This document shows, piece by piece, positions 3,272 through 8,338 of a stretch of DNA of 8,477 bases. Position numbers and translations under genes: made by a program. Numbering within the stretch: position 1 is the stretch's first letter; each line of letters begins with the position of its first letter. The DNA lies in NCBI GenBank assembly GCA_003152255.1, contig PLZT01000071.1:1-8477 (forward strand), in the 5' to 3' direction. The stretch comes from Methylocystaceae bacterium (lineage in GTDB: Bacteria; Pseudomonadota; Alphaproteobacteria; Rhizobiales; Beijerinckiaceae). Under the pieces are notes generated by a model. The model did no database searches and had not been told where the DNA came from. It saw only the letters and a list, made by a program, of their open reading frames with translations.

Positions 3272-3649
3272 CTACTGGCCAGACAGCCAGTTCGCCGCCG
3301 CAAGCCGTTCGAGCGCGGCGAAATATGCCACGTTCGGGTCTCCACCTGATTTCGGCGCCTTCATGAGATCGGTCATGAACTCGACGAGCACTGATCCGAT
3401 GGCGTGGAGAGCTTCATGCCTGTCGAGGCCTTCGTCCATGAGGCGTTGAGCCGTGCGTCGAGCGGGTGTCTCATCTCCGAGGGCGATTTGGGTCTCGACG
3501 ATCGCATGCACAGCGGCGTGCACAGCGACGTTCGGCACGCGAATACGCGCCCTCCCGTGATAGTCTCGCGCAAGTGCAATGCGCTCTTGCTCATCCAGCG
3601 CGAGCCACTCCTCACAGTCGGGCGCGTCAAGGGGATCGTAATGCTGCAT
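3272..3649 (-). CDS. DUF1841-like small protein
   Basis: A 125-residue soluble protein of unknown function. It opens MQHYDPLDAPDCEEWLALDEQERIAL, then shows the spacing seen in DUF1841-type proteins: VHAAVHAIVETQIA (about 43-56), a helix with RLMDEGLDRHEALHAIGSVLVEF (about 69-91), and a C-terminal DPNVAYFAALERL (about 104-116). The evenly placed His residues (His44, His48, His77, His81) suggest a metal-binding or catalytic helical bundle, but no activity is known to me. A GGAGG site lies 12 bases before the ATG, somewhat far. It is 115 bases upstream of the ProQ-like gene on the same strand and may share its transcript. Being real is well supported; the family name is from memory of the pattern and less sure. 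Confidence 0.72.
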   Translation of the reverse strand: MQHYDPLDAPDCEEWLALDEQERIALARDYHGRARIRVPNVAVHAAVHAIVETQIALGDETPARRTAQRLMDEGLDRHEALHAIGSVLVEFMTDLMKAPKSGGDPNVAYFAALERLAAANWLSGQ

Positions 3650-3974: not shown

Positions 3975-5135
3975 TTAAAGATTGACTTCCCCCGACCCAA
4001 TGGTTGAATTCGCATGGGCCGCGATGATTTCGTCGCGCATCGTTGAGCGATTCAGCCAATCGACGATGTAGTCGACGACAAGACGCGCAACGCACTGGTA
4101 AGCTGTCGATGAGTCCACTTCGTACGCCAAGTTGCTGGCCATGAAGTAGCCACTGCAGTTTTTAAAATAAGGACATCCGGCGCAAAAGGTCGCCTGTCGG
4201 GACTCGGATGCGGCGACCGCCTTTTCCCGTCCCGGGGAGCGCAGAAGGCGTTGTAAATCATCGTTGAAAATGTTGCCGTAGACAAATTCGGATTCATAGA
4301 GCTCCGGCTCGCCCCAAACGTTACCGTCGGTATTGACGACGAACACGTTTTCGTGAACCCTTCTGCTGAAGCGAAGCGCTCGTTTTCCGGCGATGAAATT
4401 AATGGCTACCTCCAAATAATGCTCCACCGGCGCGGTCGGAACCGCCACGCTGGAGGTAAGCCATTCCTCAAAGACTTCAATCAACGCGGCGGCGATTTCG
4501 CTGTTGCTGAGCGCATGGCGGTCTTCCTGCCACGCGGCGCCGGTTTCGAAAAATGGGAGAAATCGCACGCTTACGCCGAGTTGATCAAAGAAACGGTAGA
4601 TCTGACGGACATGAGGGCGCGTGCCTCGCGCAAGAACGCATATTGCACCGAAGCTGATCTCGTTGTCGACCAACCTTTGCATGTTCCGCAACACCGCAGG
4701 CGTGCGCGAAGCGCCGCCGACATCGATCCGTTCCTGGCCATAAACGTCGAAAGAAACGCCGATATCCTTGATGAAATCGCCTTGTTTGAGAAAGGCAATG
4801 TGCTTCTCGGTCAAAATCGTTAGGTTGGATTGAAGCGTGTTGGCGACCGCGATTTTATCTTGGAAGGCGTCGTCCTGTAAGGCCTTGGCTTCTTGATAGA
4901 AGTCAAGCGGCATAAGCAGCGGCTCGCCGCCATGCCAAATGAATTGTAAGCGGGTCACATTCCGGTCAATCGCCCAGCCCATAATGTGCTTATACATATT
5001 ACCAATGTTTTCGGACGACATTCTTCTCTTGTCATGAAGCTCTTCATATTCGTAACAATAGGAACAGCGAAGATTGCAATATTTCGTCGCTTTCACCACA
5101 ATTTGTGCCGTAGACTCGCACGGATCGGCACCCAT
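3975..5135 (-). CDS. Radical SAM/SPASM peptide maturase-like protein
   Basis: A 386-residue radical SAM enzyme with a C-terminal SPASM-type domain, the architecture of enzymes that cross-link or oxidise ribosomally made peptides and of anaerobic sulfatase maturases. The S-adenosylmethionine cluster motif is CNLRCSYCY (Cys20, Cys24, Cys27), followed by the SAM-binding WHGGEP (67-72). The auxiliary-cluster cysteines are CAGCPYFKNC (Cys318, Cys321, Cys327) and a later Cys348, fewer than in two-cluster SPASM proteins, so one auxiliary cluster or a reduced ligand set is likely. An in-frame TTG at 5153 is possible, but the ATG at 5135 has a G-rich ribosome site (GGGGG) close upstream and puts the motif at the usual distance. 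Its start lies 83 bases after the second precursor-like gene, same strand. That neighbourhood favours peptide modification over sulfatase maturation, since no sulfatase is present. Fold assignment is firm; substrate and bond formed are inferred. Confidence 0.9.
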   Translation of the reverse strand: MGADPCESTAQIVVKATKYCNLRCSYCYEYEELHDKRRMSSENIGNMYKHIMGWAIDRNVTRLQFIWHGGEPLLMPLDFYQEAKALQDDAFQDKIAVANTLQSNLTILTEKHIAFLKQGDFIKDIGVSFDVYGQERIDVGGASRTPAVLRNMQRLVDNEISFGAICVLARGTRPHVRQIYRFFDQLGVSVRFLPFFETGAAWQEDRHALSNSEIAAALIEVFEEWLTSSVAVPTAPVEHYLEVAINFIAGKRALRFSRRVHENVFVVNTDGNVWGEPELYESEFVYGNIFNDDLQRLLRSPGREKAVAASESRQATFCAGCPYFKNCSGYFMASNLAYEVDSSTAYQCVARLVVDYIVDWLNRSTMRDEIIAAHANSTIGSGEVNL

Positions 5136-5218
5136 CAACACCCCCAACGGCAACGCCGATCGCTACGAGCTTGGCAAAACAGCTTTGCTCTTTGGCGGTA
5201 TAACAAAGTCGCCGAACG

Positions 5219-5578
5219 TCATGAATGCTTGTCCGACGAACACAAAAGATAAACGGCCGCCACATCCTTCACTGCGGCGTTATGTTCGCCTCTCTGCTTG
5301 TGACGTTTCAGACTCCTGACATTTGCATGTTGCTTAAAATGGTCGGGATCGGGGTGCGAGCGGTCGCCAGGCTGCATTTCGCTAAAAGCCTTGTATCCTT
5401 GCGCCAGTCTAAGTTGGCTCAGATTGAGTATCTGATCATGCGCGGCCGGCGAGATCGGTCCCGAACCGGTGGCCGCGCGTACCGTTTGCGAGGCGCTCGC
5501 AACTTCAGACTGAGCCGGTGCGTTAGCGGCTAACAAGCTTGACGCGATCGCTCCGACGATGAAAGGGGATCGTCTCAT
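5219..5578 (-). CDS. Putative exported RiPP precursor, paralogue B
   Basis: A 119-residue protein, paralogous to the gene just upstream. It starts with a Sec-type signal: MRR, a hydrophobic core FIVGAIASSLLAA, then NAPAQS. A block shared with paralogue A follows (45-67: AAHDQIL, RLAQGY, AFSE), then SHPDPDHFKQH (74-84), a basic His-rich stretch to about residue 99, and a short tail VAAVYLLCSSDKHS. The ATG at 5578 is chosen because GGAGAG sits before it and it aligns with the start of paralogue A; the ATG at 5590 and the frame to 5683 lack both supports. It is 83 bases from the radical SAM start, so it probably shares its transcript. Conserved front plus divergent His/aromatic-rich C-terminus is what a leader-core precursor looks like. 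I do not recognise the family with certainty; it could also be an unrelated small secreted protein. Confidence 0.72.
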   Translation of the reverse strand: MRRSPFIVGAIASSLLAANAPAQSEVASASQTVRAATGSGPISPAAHDQILNLSQLRLAQGYKAFSEMQPGDRSHPDPDHFKQHANVRSLKRHKQRGEHNAAVKDVAAVYLLCSSDKHS

Positions 5579-5740
5579 CACACTCTCCATTTCAATTTGC
5601 GACAACCAACTTCCAAACCATTCCCTTCGGGACGCGTCTAAAAGCCTGCACCTTCCTTCTTCGTTTGAAAAAGCATCAATCAAAGCCTCGCCGCGACCAA
5701 ATGGGCTTCGATCAGCTGCCCTCGCCGAGACGCGTTGGTT

Positions 5741-6115
5741 TCAAACGTCGCCCGCCTTCTGAAATGCGGCAAAGACGGAAGCGACCTGTTTTGATGGATC
5801 CCTTATTTCGCTCTTTATCTTTTTAGTTTTTCTGTCCAACTGGGCAGGGGTTTTCATATGTTCCTTATAATGCCATTGACTGGGCGCGTGTGACGGGTCT
5901 GGCAGCTGTGCTTCGCTAAAAGCCCTATAGCCTTGCGCCAGTCGAGTCCGGCTCAGATCGAGTATCTGATCATGGGCGGCGCGGGAGACGGGCCTAAGAA
6001 CAGCGGTCGCAGCCTCTTGCGCCTGTGCAGCGTCGGCCACATCCGCGCTGGCCGGCGCGGGGTCGGCCAAGAGGCTCGTAGCGAGGGCGCCGAGAAGGAC
6101 GGGGTATCGTTTCAT
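5741..6115 (-). CDS. Putative exported RiPP precursor, paralogue A
   Basis: A 124-residue protein, first gene of the presumed cluster A-B-radical SAM. The N-terminus is signal-like: MKR, hydrophobic VLLGALATSLLA, then an Ala-Ser-Ala cleavage-type site near residue 24. The block shared with paralogue B (46-68) contains AAHDQIL, RLAQGY and AFSE with a few changes. It is followed by SHAPSQWHYKEH (75-86), matching B in spacing of Ser-His, His-aromatic-Lys and the final His. A Lys-rich stretch and VASVFAAFQKAGDV close the protein. The ATG at 6115 is chosen because it aligns with B; an in-frame ATG at 6124 is also possible. The 162-base gap to B has no gene. A weak promoter-like pair (TTGCCA, 17 bases, CAATTT) lies at 6169-6197. 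Role as substrate of the radical SAM protein is inferred from position, duplication and conserved-then-variable layout. Confidence 0.74.
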   Translation of the reverse strand: MKRYPVLLGALATSLLADPAPASADVADAAQAQEAATAVLRPVSRAAHDQILDLSRTRLAQGYRAFSEAQLPDPSHAPSQWHYKEHMKTPAQLDRKTKKIKSEIRDPSKQVASVFAAFQKAGDV

Positions 6116-6168
6116 TGCTCGCATTCCCGCGATGAACCGCGCCGTCGATGATACGCAGTCTCGCTAGA

Positions 6169-7727: not shown

Positions 7728-8060
7728 TCAACGCCTATCGTCATCACGCATCTGCTCGACATAGGACCGCAACACCGCATTGATTTTGGTCTGATAGCCC
7801 CTGCCCTGACGCCGGAAAAATTCCAGCACGTCACGATCAACGCGCATATTGAGGACGGCTTTCGGCTCCGGTAGTTCGACCGATGCTTGCGCCCAATCGA
7901 CAACCATGCCCGCCTCCTCGGGATCGCTGGCAATTGCCGCTTCAAGTTCCGCGTTTGTCATCGCGGTGGCGACTTTCCAATCGCTTTTGCTCTCGCCGCG
8001 TGCCTGCATCGCGCGTAGCTCTTCATCCGTGTGCCTGACGATACGCTCTTTCCTCACCAT
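7728..8060 (-). CDS. brnA: BrnA antitoxin (type II toxin-antitoxin)
   Basis: A 110-residue antitoxin that binds the BrnT ribonuclease toxin and, through its C-terminal ribbon-helix-helix domain, represses the operon. The N-terminal half is charged and likely flexible until bound (MVRKERIVRHTDEELRAM..., then DWKVATAMTNAEL). The C-terminal part has the DNA-binding strand KAVLNMRVDRDVLEFF (about 67-82) and helix QTKINAVLRSYVEQM (about 90-104), as in family members. The ATG at 8060 has a strong AGGAGG site seven bases upstream and overlaps the last 38 bases of brnT, the usual toxin-first, antitoxin-second arrangement with translational coupling. Nothing looks truncated. Confidence 0.93.
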   Translation of the reverse strand: MVRKERIVRHTDEELRAMQARGESKSDWKVATAMTNAELEAAIASDPEEAGMVVDWAQASVELPEPKAVLNMRVDRDVLEFFRRQGRGYQTKINAVLRSYVEQMRDDDRR

Positions 8061-8289
8061 TACGCGCCCTCCTCAACGAAATGATCCGACGGCTGTCGTC
8101 GCGCCATGTCCAAACAATGGTGTAAAATTTTCCGTCAATCATGGCCGTAGTGACAAACCGCGCCTCGAAGGGATGATCCGACTTAGCGGTGATCGTCGCC
8201 CGTCCGTCAAAAAGCAGCCGCGCGTCCACAAAGTCGAGCTTGTGTTTCGCTAAATTCGCTCGCCGTTTCGCTTCATCCCACTCGAACAT
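8023..8289 (-). CDS. brnT: BrnT toxin (RelE-like ribonuclease)
   Basis: An 88-residue toxin of the BrnT family, which cleaves RNA and stops growth when not bound by BrnA. Family hallmarks are present: the opening MFEWDEAKRRANLAKHKLDF (1-20), a central strand region with DGRATI and ARFVTTAMIDGKFYTIVWTWR, and the C-terminal RRIISLRRARNGEERAY (about 67-83), with the catalytic-type basic and Ser/Arg residues in place. The ATG at 8289 is used because the family begins at this MFEWD; an in-frame TTG at 8304 would lie inside the repeat of the promoter region. It is the first gene of the operon and overlaps brnA. The IS30 element begins only about 50 bases upstream. Confidence 0.94.
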   Translation of the reverse strand: MFEWDEAKRRANLAKHKLDFVDARLLFDGRATITAKSDHPFEARFVTTAMIDGKFYTIVWTWRDDSRRIISLRRARNGEERAYRQAHG

Positions 8290-8290
8290 A

Positions 8291-8338
8291 ATTAGTCTAC
8301 ACAATTTGTCTATACATTTCCAGAAGCCTTTTTAGGAA
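8291..8338 (-). promoter_or_regulatory. brnTA promoter with tandem operator-like repeat
   Basis: On the plus strand ATTAGTCTACACA (8291-8303) and ATTTGTCTATACA (8304-8316) are adjacent 13-base units matching at 11 positions. Read on the minus strand, the distal copy contains TATAGA (8309-8314), a likely -10, with TTCCTA (8333-8338) 18 bases before it as a weak -35. Repeats over the -10 and up to the start codon suit autorepression by the BrnA complex. Confidence 0.5.

Follow-up and report, generated by a model that had tools for sequence, protein, structure and literature searches.

Two exported precursor-like paralogues and an unnamed radical SAM/SPASM enzyme as a probable small RiPP-type operon in a Methylocystaceae bacterium

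Introduction

Three neighbouring genes of a Methylocystaceae bacterium raise the question of whether a radical SAM/SPASM enzyme can take as its substrates two small proteins that carry signal peptides of the Sec type, and, if so, what it makes of them. The genes lie on contig PLZT01000071.1 (assembly GCA_003152255.1), of which the first 8,477 nucleotides, hereafter the window, were analysed. We conclude that they probably constitute a small RiPP-type operon whose enzyme belongs to an unnamed clade of radical SAM/SPASM maturases with mostly Sec-like precursors, and that an aromatic link is the likely chemistry.

Results and discussion

Organisation of the cassette

ORF calling placed three minus-strand genes within positions 3975-6115, in the order A, B and R.

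Gene A, 5741..6115, minus strand: putative exported precursor of 124 aa, with signal MKRYPVLLGALATSLLADPAPASA, conserved block AAHDQILDLSRTRLAQGYRAFSE and a basic tail containing WHYKEH
Conserved block of A at the DNA level, 5888..5988, minus strand: 76% identical to the block of B
Gene B, 5219..5578, minus strand: paralogous putative exported precursor of 119 aa, with signal MRRSPFIVGAIASSLLAANAPAQS, conserved block AAHDQILNLSQLRLAQGYKAFSE and a tail containing HFKQH
Conserved block of B at the DNA level, 5354..5454, minus strand: repeat partner of 5888-5988
Gene R, 3975..5135, minus strand: radical SAM/SPASM peptide maturase, 386 aa from the ATG at 5135

Gene A starts at the ATG at 6115 (another in-frame ATG is present at 6124) and gene B at the ATG at 5578. 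For R, an alternative TTG start at 5153 would give 392 aa; the 386-aa form has the length of the database protein P0002. The gap between A and B is 162 bases and that between B and R 65-83 bases. The ORFs, BLASTP and Pfam thus confirmed what an earlier note had read from the sequence, namely two exported-type paralogues followed on the same strand by a radical SAM/SPASM enzyme. Its remark that no transporter or protease gene is nearby also held among the window ORFs scanned (9 by NCBIfam and 10 by Pfam). Promoter and terminator scanning gave signals at chance level.

Other genes on the minus strand of the window encode a SelO-type protein adenylyltransferase that is cut off by the window end (2-1345), an IHF-alpha-like protein (1773-2108), an ORF of 125 aa that weakly matches DUF1841 (3272-3649; 18 bits, below the cut-off of 24) and a BrnT toxin/BrnA antitoxin pair (8023-8304 and 7728-8060; Pfam E-values of 6.5e-22 and 2.2e-15). 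The third-position GC of A, B and R (0.58-0.63) is lower than that of the SelO-type (0.69) and IHF-alpha-like (0.71) genes, and the cassette may therefore be of foreign origin. The 448-aa part of SelO had matches in 21 of 115 genomes of the alphaproteobacterial class, the best (67%) in G413; no relative of R was found in that genome, which is the only one of its family and order.

Paralogues A and B

A and B are 49% identical over 115 aa (BLASTP, E-value of 5e-29), and this identity is unevenly distributed: the signals agree at 52% of residues, the middle blocks at 68% and the tails at 29%. The dN/dS values were 0.47/1.27 overall (117 codons), 0.23/0.94 in the conserved block and 0.86/1.54 in the tail, a pattern that points to purifying selection on both genes. 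These values suggest that A and B have been maintained as proteins while their tails drifted.

Each of the two N-termini starts with charged residues, continues with a hydrophobic stretch and has a site resembling Ala-x-Ala; signal peptides, here and in the relatives, were assigned by eye and with a crude rule rather than by SignalP. The C-terminal halves are basic (pI of 9.7 in A and 9.4 in B) and contain 3 and 6 His and 8 and 5 Lys residues, respectively. An alignment of the two proteins identified GYxAFSE and H[FY]K[EQ]H as common elements, with no clear aromatic-X-X repeat.

Neither protein reached the cut-off of any NCBIfam or Pfam family, and Pfam detected no Nif11 domain in them. The earlier note had named a wide occurrence of homologues of the small proteins away from radical SAM genes as an observation that would speak against it. 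No such occurrence was seen: B matched only itself in the protein database at an E-value of 1, A had no match in plasmids or phages at 0.1, and the few matches of the precursor of L001, a relative described below, are all close, one of them running into the enzyme. When A and B were compared with 11 other precursor cores in 22 shuffle tests, nothing convincing was obtained (best, 14/1000). The tie of A and B to R therefore rests on position, signal and paralogy.

Beyond the divergent end of B, a second frame is open on the minus strand at 5135-5300 (FVFVGQAFMTFGDFVIPPKSKAVLPSS). Because the final residues of B are unlike those of A and this other frame continues past its stop, a change of frame in the tail of B is possible. 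In the database, the copy P0001 has the same end point as B in the window.

Features of enzyme R

R contains the CxxxCxxC motif and scores 39.1 bits with Pfam Radical_SAM (PF04055; cut-off, 29.5) and 19.8 bits, slightly below the cut-off of 21.5, with Pfam SPASM (PF13186). Its C-terminal cysteines are arranged as C324-x2-C327-x5-C333-x20-C354 (392-aa numbering), and these retained cysteines are probably equivalent to those of auxiliary cluster II in anSME. In an alignment of 25 rows (A1), CxxxCxxC, WHGGEP and all four of these cysteines are invariant (25/25).

A search of 5.8 billion proteins, in which the 7998 candidates with most words in common were scored, yielded 1080 proteins at an E-value of 1e-3; the best 120 comprise the window's own protein and 119 others at 39-52% identity. 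Three of these best 120 (of 1080) bear NCBI names, all uninformative. R passed no cut-off of NCBIfam release 20.0: its scores against the respective cut-offs were 155/450 for DynA, 153/349 for the sulfatase maturase model TIGR03942, 114/425 for AmcB, 113/650 for DarE, 97/310 for GrrM, 82/445 for YhhB, 74/370 for FxsB and 44/450 for XyeB. Seven further clade enzymes likewise reached no cut-off of a named NCBIfam family, and DynA was the top-scoring model for R and for all seven (94-151 bits in those seven). The AlphaFold model of R (pLDDT of 87) matched anSMEcpe best among PDB entries (TM of about 0.7), followed by the RiPP maturases ChlB (9gmc and 9gm3) and the sactipeptide enzyme 5why.

These results bear on the alternative that R acts as an anaerobic sulfatase maturase, or as a similar protein-modifying enzyme, on a substrate encoded elsewhere, with A and B as bystander periplasmic proteins. 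The TIGR03942 score lies near the best score of R, and anSMEcpe is its closest structural match, but 153 bits is far from the cut-off of 349, whereas the eight sulfatase maturases used as controls scored 373-470 bits, all above it. A cysteine four residues after CxxCx5C is present in 8/8 of these controls and in none of the 22 clade members with the motif, a count that omits L011 (variant spacing) and L001 (cut by the contig end); it is also absent from 25/25 rows of A1. Six of the eight controls were labelled after this cysteine had been seen in three, and TIGR03942 confirms all eight independently. A scan for a sulfatase motif was positive in 0/25 clade loci but equally in 0/66 other loci, and is thus uninformative. 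Adding the separate position of R in the tree and the precursor-like genes that adjoin 21 of 24 clade enzymes (both described below), we regard this alternative as highly improbable. R as a sulfatase maturase proper was rejected on the missing cysteine, the TIGR03942 score and the separate clade. The earlier note had also named, as an observation that would refute it, enzyme homologues that always lie beside a different substrate such as a sulfatase; the missing SPASM cysteine and the missed TIGR03942 cut-off oppose this.

A clade of related maturases

A tree of 62 rows, picked from 109 (84 locus enzymes, 24 A1 proteins and one GrrM), placed R in a group of 48 with support of 100/100, separate from the eight confirmed sulfatase maturases and the GrrM control. 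The root was set at the midpoint, and long-branch warnings apply to L058, GrrM, L016, L011, L031 and L014. Within the group, R stands beside P0003 and P0004 (100/98). The 48 rows consist of 24 of the 119 database proteins, for which there was no context, and 24 loci with DNA context, namely the window, L001-L014, L087, L093-L099 and L102; L100 and L101 were omitted as second copies from genomes already represented.

Comparable, as yet unnamed gene sets are present in cyanobacteria and in further soil bacteria. The contig of L014 is labelled Akkermansia muciniphila and its enzyme groups with that of Marinicauda (L013); the label may reflect a binning error. In surveys of genomes, whose sets partly overlap and whose counts each include the centre genome, R as a single protein (E-value of 1e-40) had relatives in 1/397 genomes of the order of G002 and 1/289 of the class of G001. 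The alignment at 1e-60 gave 2/195 for the genus of G002, 1/199 for the order of G001 and 1/398 for the phylum of G001, and at 1e-70 it gave 8/194 for the class of G004. No relative of R was confirmed in viral contigs, and none of 240 plasmid records had at least 60% identity to R (23.6-27.7% in the best 20 of 240).

Genes upstream of the clade enzymes

Upstream of the enzyme, 15 of 24 clade loci have a gene for a Sec-like protein (the window, L001, L004, L005, L006, L008, L010, L087, L093, L095-L099 and L102), five have one for a Nif11-leader precursor and one has a Tat-like one; the remaining three show nothing clear. A small precursor gene beside a tailoring enzyme, the hallmark by which a RiPP system is recognised, is thus kept across relatives (21/24 loci). 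The Sec-like protein of L005 is located ~700 bases from the enzyme. Those of L096-L099 and L102, at about 215-295 aa, are longer, and in the tree the enzymes of these loci branch off separately together with that of L009. The Nif11-leader precursors, confirmed by Pfam in 5/5 cases, are those of L002, L003, L011, L012 and L094; four of these loci are cyanobacterial or from the cyanobacterial set and one is from Myxococcales. The Tat-like protein, with a twin-arginine start, is that of L013, and no recognisable leader-bearing precursor was found upstream in L007, L009 and L014.

The earlier note had considered precursors with Sec-type signals unusual; within this clade they are instead the commonest form, and its suggestion of export through Sec accords with that arrangement. 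The crude signal rule flagged 17/24 clade loci versus 23/58 non-clade loci (66 minus eight for which the script detected no ORF of the enzyme); among the clade loci, L007 and L013 were flagged on ORFs judged spurious, and the twin-arginine protein of L013 was missed. When a score of at least 1.9 was required, a threshold set post hoc, the figures were 14/24 (one of them, L008, on a spurious ORF) versus 8/58. This automatic rule supports the Sec-like pattern, though it is not a clean test.

L101 (89-4142) contains three exported paralogues around one clade enzyme and is a larger version of the precursor duplication in the window. Two of these paralogues have 194 and 171 aa, and the third, truncated at the locus end, has at least 278 aa.

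Related cores behind exchanged leaders

In shuffle tests between the cores of Sec-like and Nif11 precursors, 12 of the 30 pairs were at 20/1000 or below and 18 above. The closest were L004-L012, L004-L002 and L004-L094 (0/1000 each) and L087-L002 (1/1000), L004 being from Nostoc and L087 from Bradyrhizobium; the core of L001 reached 20/1000 with none of the five Nif11 cores. Cores related to those behind Sec-like leaders are found in 4/5 Nif11 loci. Because related cores stand behind either leader in cyanobacteria, the exported proteins appear to be marked as precursors, and the strongest case for this role, as judged by these sequence comparisons, comes from the relatives of R. Together with the clade-wide gene order, these cores favour the proposal of the earlier note that A and B are substrates of R, which we consider very likely.

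The precursor of L001 has five database matches, all 79-100% identical, and its core type (AKGFKDGFHESFQEGAR) is identical in four of them (P0122-P0125). The fifth, P0126, is an L001-type precursor that runs straight into the N-terminal part of the enzyme, by deletion, fusion or assembly error. Other clade precursors have Phe-rich cores.

A partner gene in some clade loci

Downstream of the enzyme, a partner region of ~290 aa is present in 7/24 clade loci (L002, L003, L004, L005, L012, L087 and L094). All five of the regions that were aligned share its HxD motif and a later H, which are also present in L087. We refer to the protein as putatively oxygenase-like on the HxD...H motif alone; its AlphaFold model reached a pLDDT of only 33, and neither Pfam (two proteins) nor NCBIfam (three proteins) gave a match. 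On the Nostoc plasmid NZ_CP040302.1, a hypothetical HxD...H protein (L103, 3593-4441) with 38% identity to the L004 partner adjoins an annotated GrrM, which scores 437 bits against the cut-off of 310. In genome G952 (L094 and L100), two tandem minus-strand ORFs (719 and 738 aa) both encode a clade enzyme followed by the partner with no stop between; the enzyme parts are 36% and 35% identical to R and the partner parts 45% and 32% identical to that of L004. The presence of the partner beside GrrM and its fusion to clade enzymes link the clade to cyclophane-forming systems, such as those described in PMC11002830.

The partner gene was not found in the window, and one may ask whether A and B are substrates of a decaying system that has lost its partner, has an altered B tail and yields no active product. 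The unlike tails of A and B and the open frame past the stop of B would fit such decay, but dN/dS is well below 1, R retains its conserved cysteines and motifs, and 17/24 clade loci, the window among them, show no partner in the available DNA, several of them being short or cut. We assign decay a very small probability.

Proposed mechanism

The genes, the paralogy of A and B and the selection on them, the clade membership and cysteine pattern of R, and the clade-wide gene order with precursors are observed directly. That R acts on A and B is inferred, as are the residues and the chemistry, the function, and the sequence in which modification and export take place. In the cytoplasm, R would bind the A and B pre-proteins, with the signal peptide and the conserved block acting as leader, and would introduce at least one cross-link between side chains at aromatic residues, for which the conserved Gly-Tyr-Lys/Arg-Ala-Phe-Ser-Glu and His-[Phe/Tyr]-Lys-[Gln/Glu]-His offer candidate positions. 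After modification, the chain would be exported by Sec and its signal cut off by signal peptidase, so that no dedicated transporter or protease would be needed.

For an aromatic cross-link, cyclophane or other, as the modification, we see the chances as roughly balanced. The earlier note had mentioned cyclophane-forming systems among those that cross-link peptides, and a cyclophane is a candidate product here: R passes no cyclophane-maturase model, A and B have no clear repeated aromatic-X-X motif, and a sequence does not in itself reveal the chemistry. R may alternatively mature exported RiPP precursors by non-cyclophane chemistry, such as a Lys/His link, epimerisation or other C-H functionalisation. 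R passes no chemistry-specific model, and A and B lack Trp/Phe-X-X repeats and have Lys/His-rich tails, all of which agree with such chemistry. However, the best NCBIfam scores of R (DynA, sulfatase maturase, AmcB, DarE and GrrM) are mostly to aromatic cross-linkers, the partner family also adjoins GrrM, and other clade precursors have Phe-rich cores. We therefore judge the non-cyclophane alternative unlikely, though a good deal less so than decay or a sulfatase maturase.

A more far-reaching version of the preferred reading, which we put forward tentatively, is that these systems represent a class of their own, made up of exported proteins with cross-links. A Sec signal would have taken the place of the Nif11 leader, or been exchanged with it, and would act both in recognition by the enzyme and in export. 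After maturation, the product would then be a stapled basic protein of ~95 residues in the periplasm or secreted, rather than a short cleaved peptide, and SecYEG would have to pass chains that are already cross-linked. If this is true, maturases that no NCBIfam model names (at least 119 relatives at 39-52% identity) use Sec where other RiPP systems would need their own transporter and protease, and the cassette offers a direct test case for Sec carrying cross-linked chains. It would also mean that Nif11 and Sec leaders are exchanged on related cores, and that a partner, oxygenase-like by motif, is common to the clade and a GrrM system.

Comparison with known systems

Searches of an open-licence library gave no title or abstract start that describes this clade or cyclophane precursors with Sec signals, which is weak evidence of absence. 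Compared with anSME, R appears from its model to have the overall fold and radical SAM core in common (TM of about 0.7), but the cysteine at four residues past CxxCx5C is missing from it, and the 75 residues that precede this motif contain none, where clade members have 0-2 and sulfatase maturases 3-4. Nif11-leader RiPPs are approached by the five clade loci of 24 that use this leader, whereas A and B carry Sec-like signals instead and lack a Nif11 domain.

Triceptides are characterised by aryl to C-beta cross-links between residues i and i+2 and by aromatic-X-X core motifs that usually recur. Their systems (GrrM/OscB, XyeB/XncB, FxsB, YhhB and AmcB) likewise have a radical SAM/SPASM enzyme beside small precursor genes, and GrrM on the Nostoc plasmid adjoins the same HxD...H partner family as the clade; R, however, is far below every cyclophane-maturase cut-off. 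The one neighbour peptide of GrrM examined (68 aa) has no signal peptide by eye, whereas most clade precursors have one. With regard to dynobactin and darobactin, DynA is the best model for R but its cut-off of 450 is missed, and the darobactin cluster carries the transporters DarBCD (PMC9055067), whereas no transporter was seen among the window ORFs scanned. In its mode of action the system is probably similar to triceptide or dynobactin systems, yet it stands outside all named families of NCBIfam release 20.0, and what sets it apart from both is the Sec-type leader.
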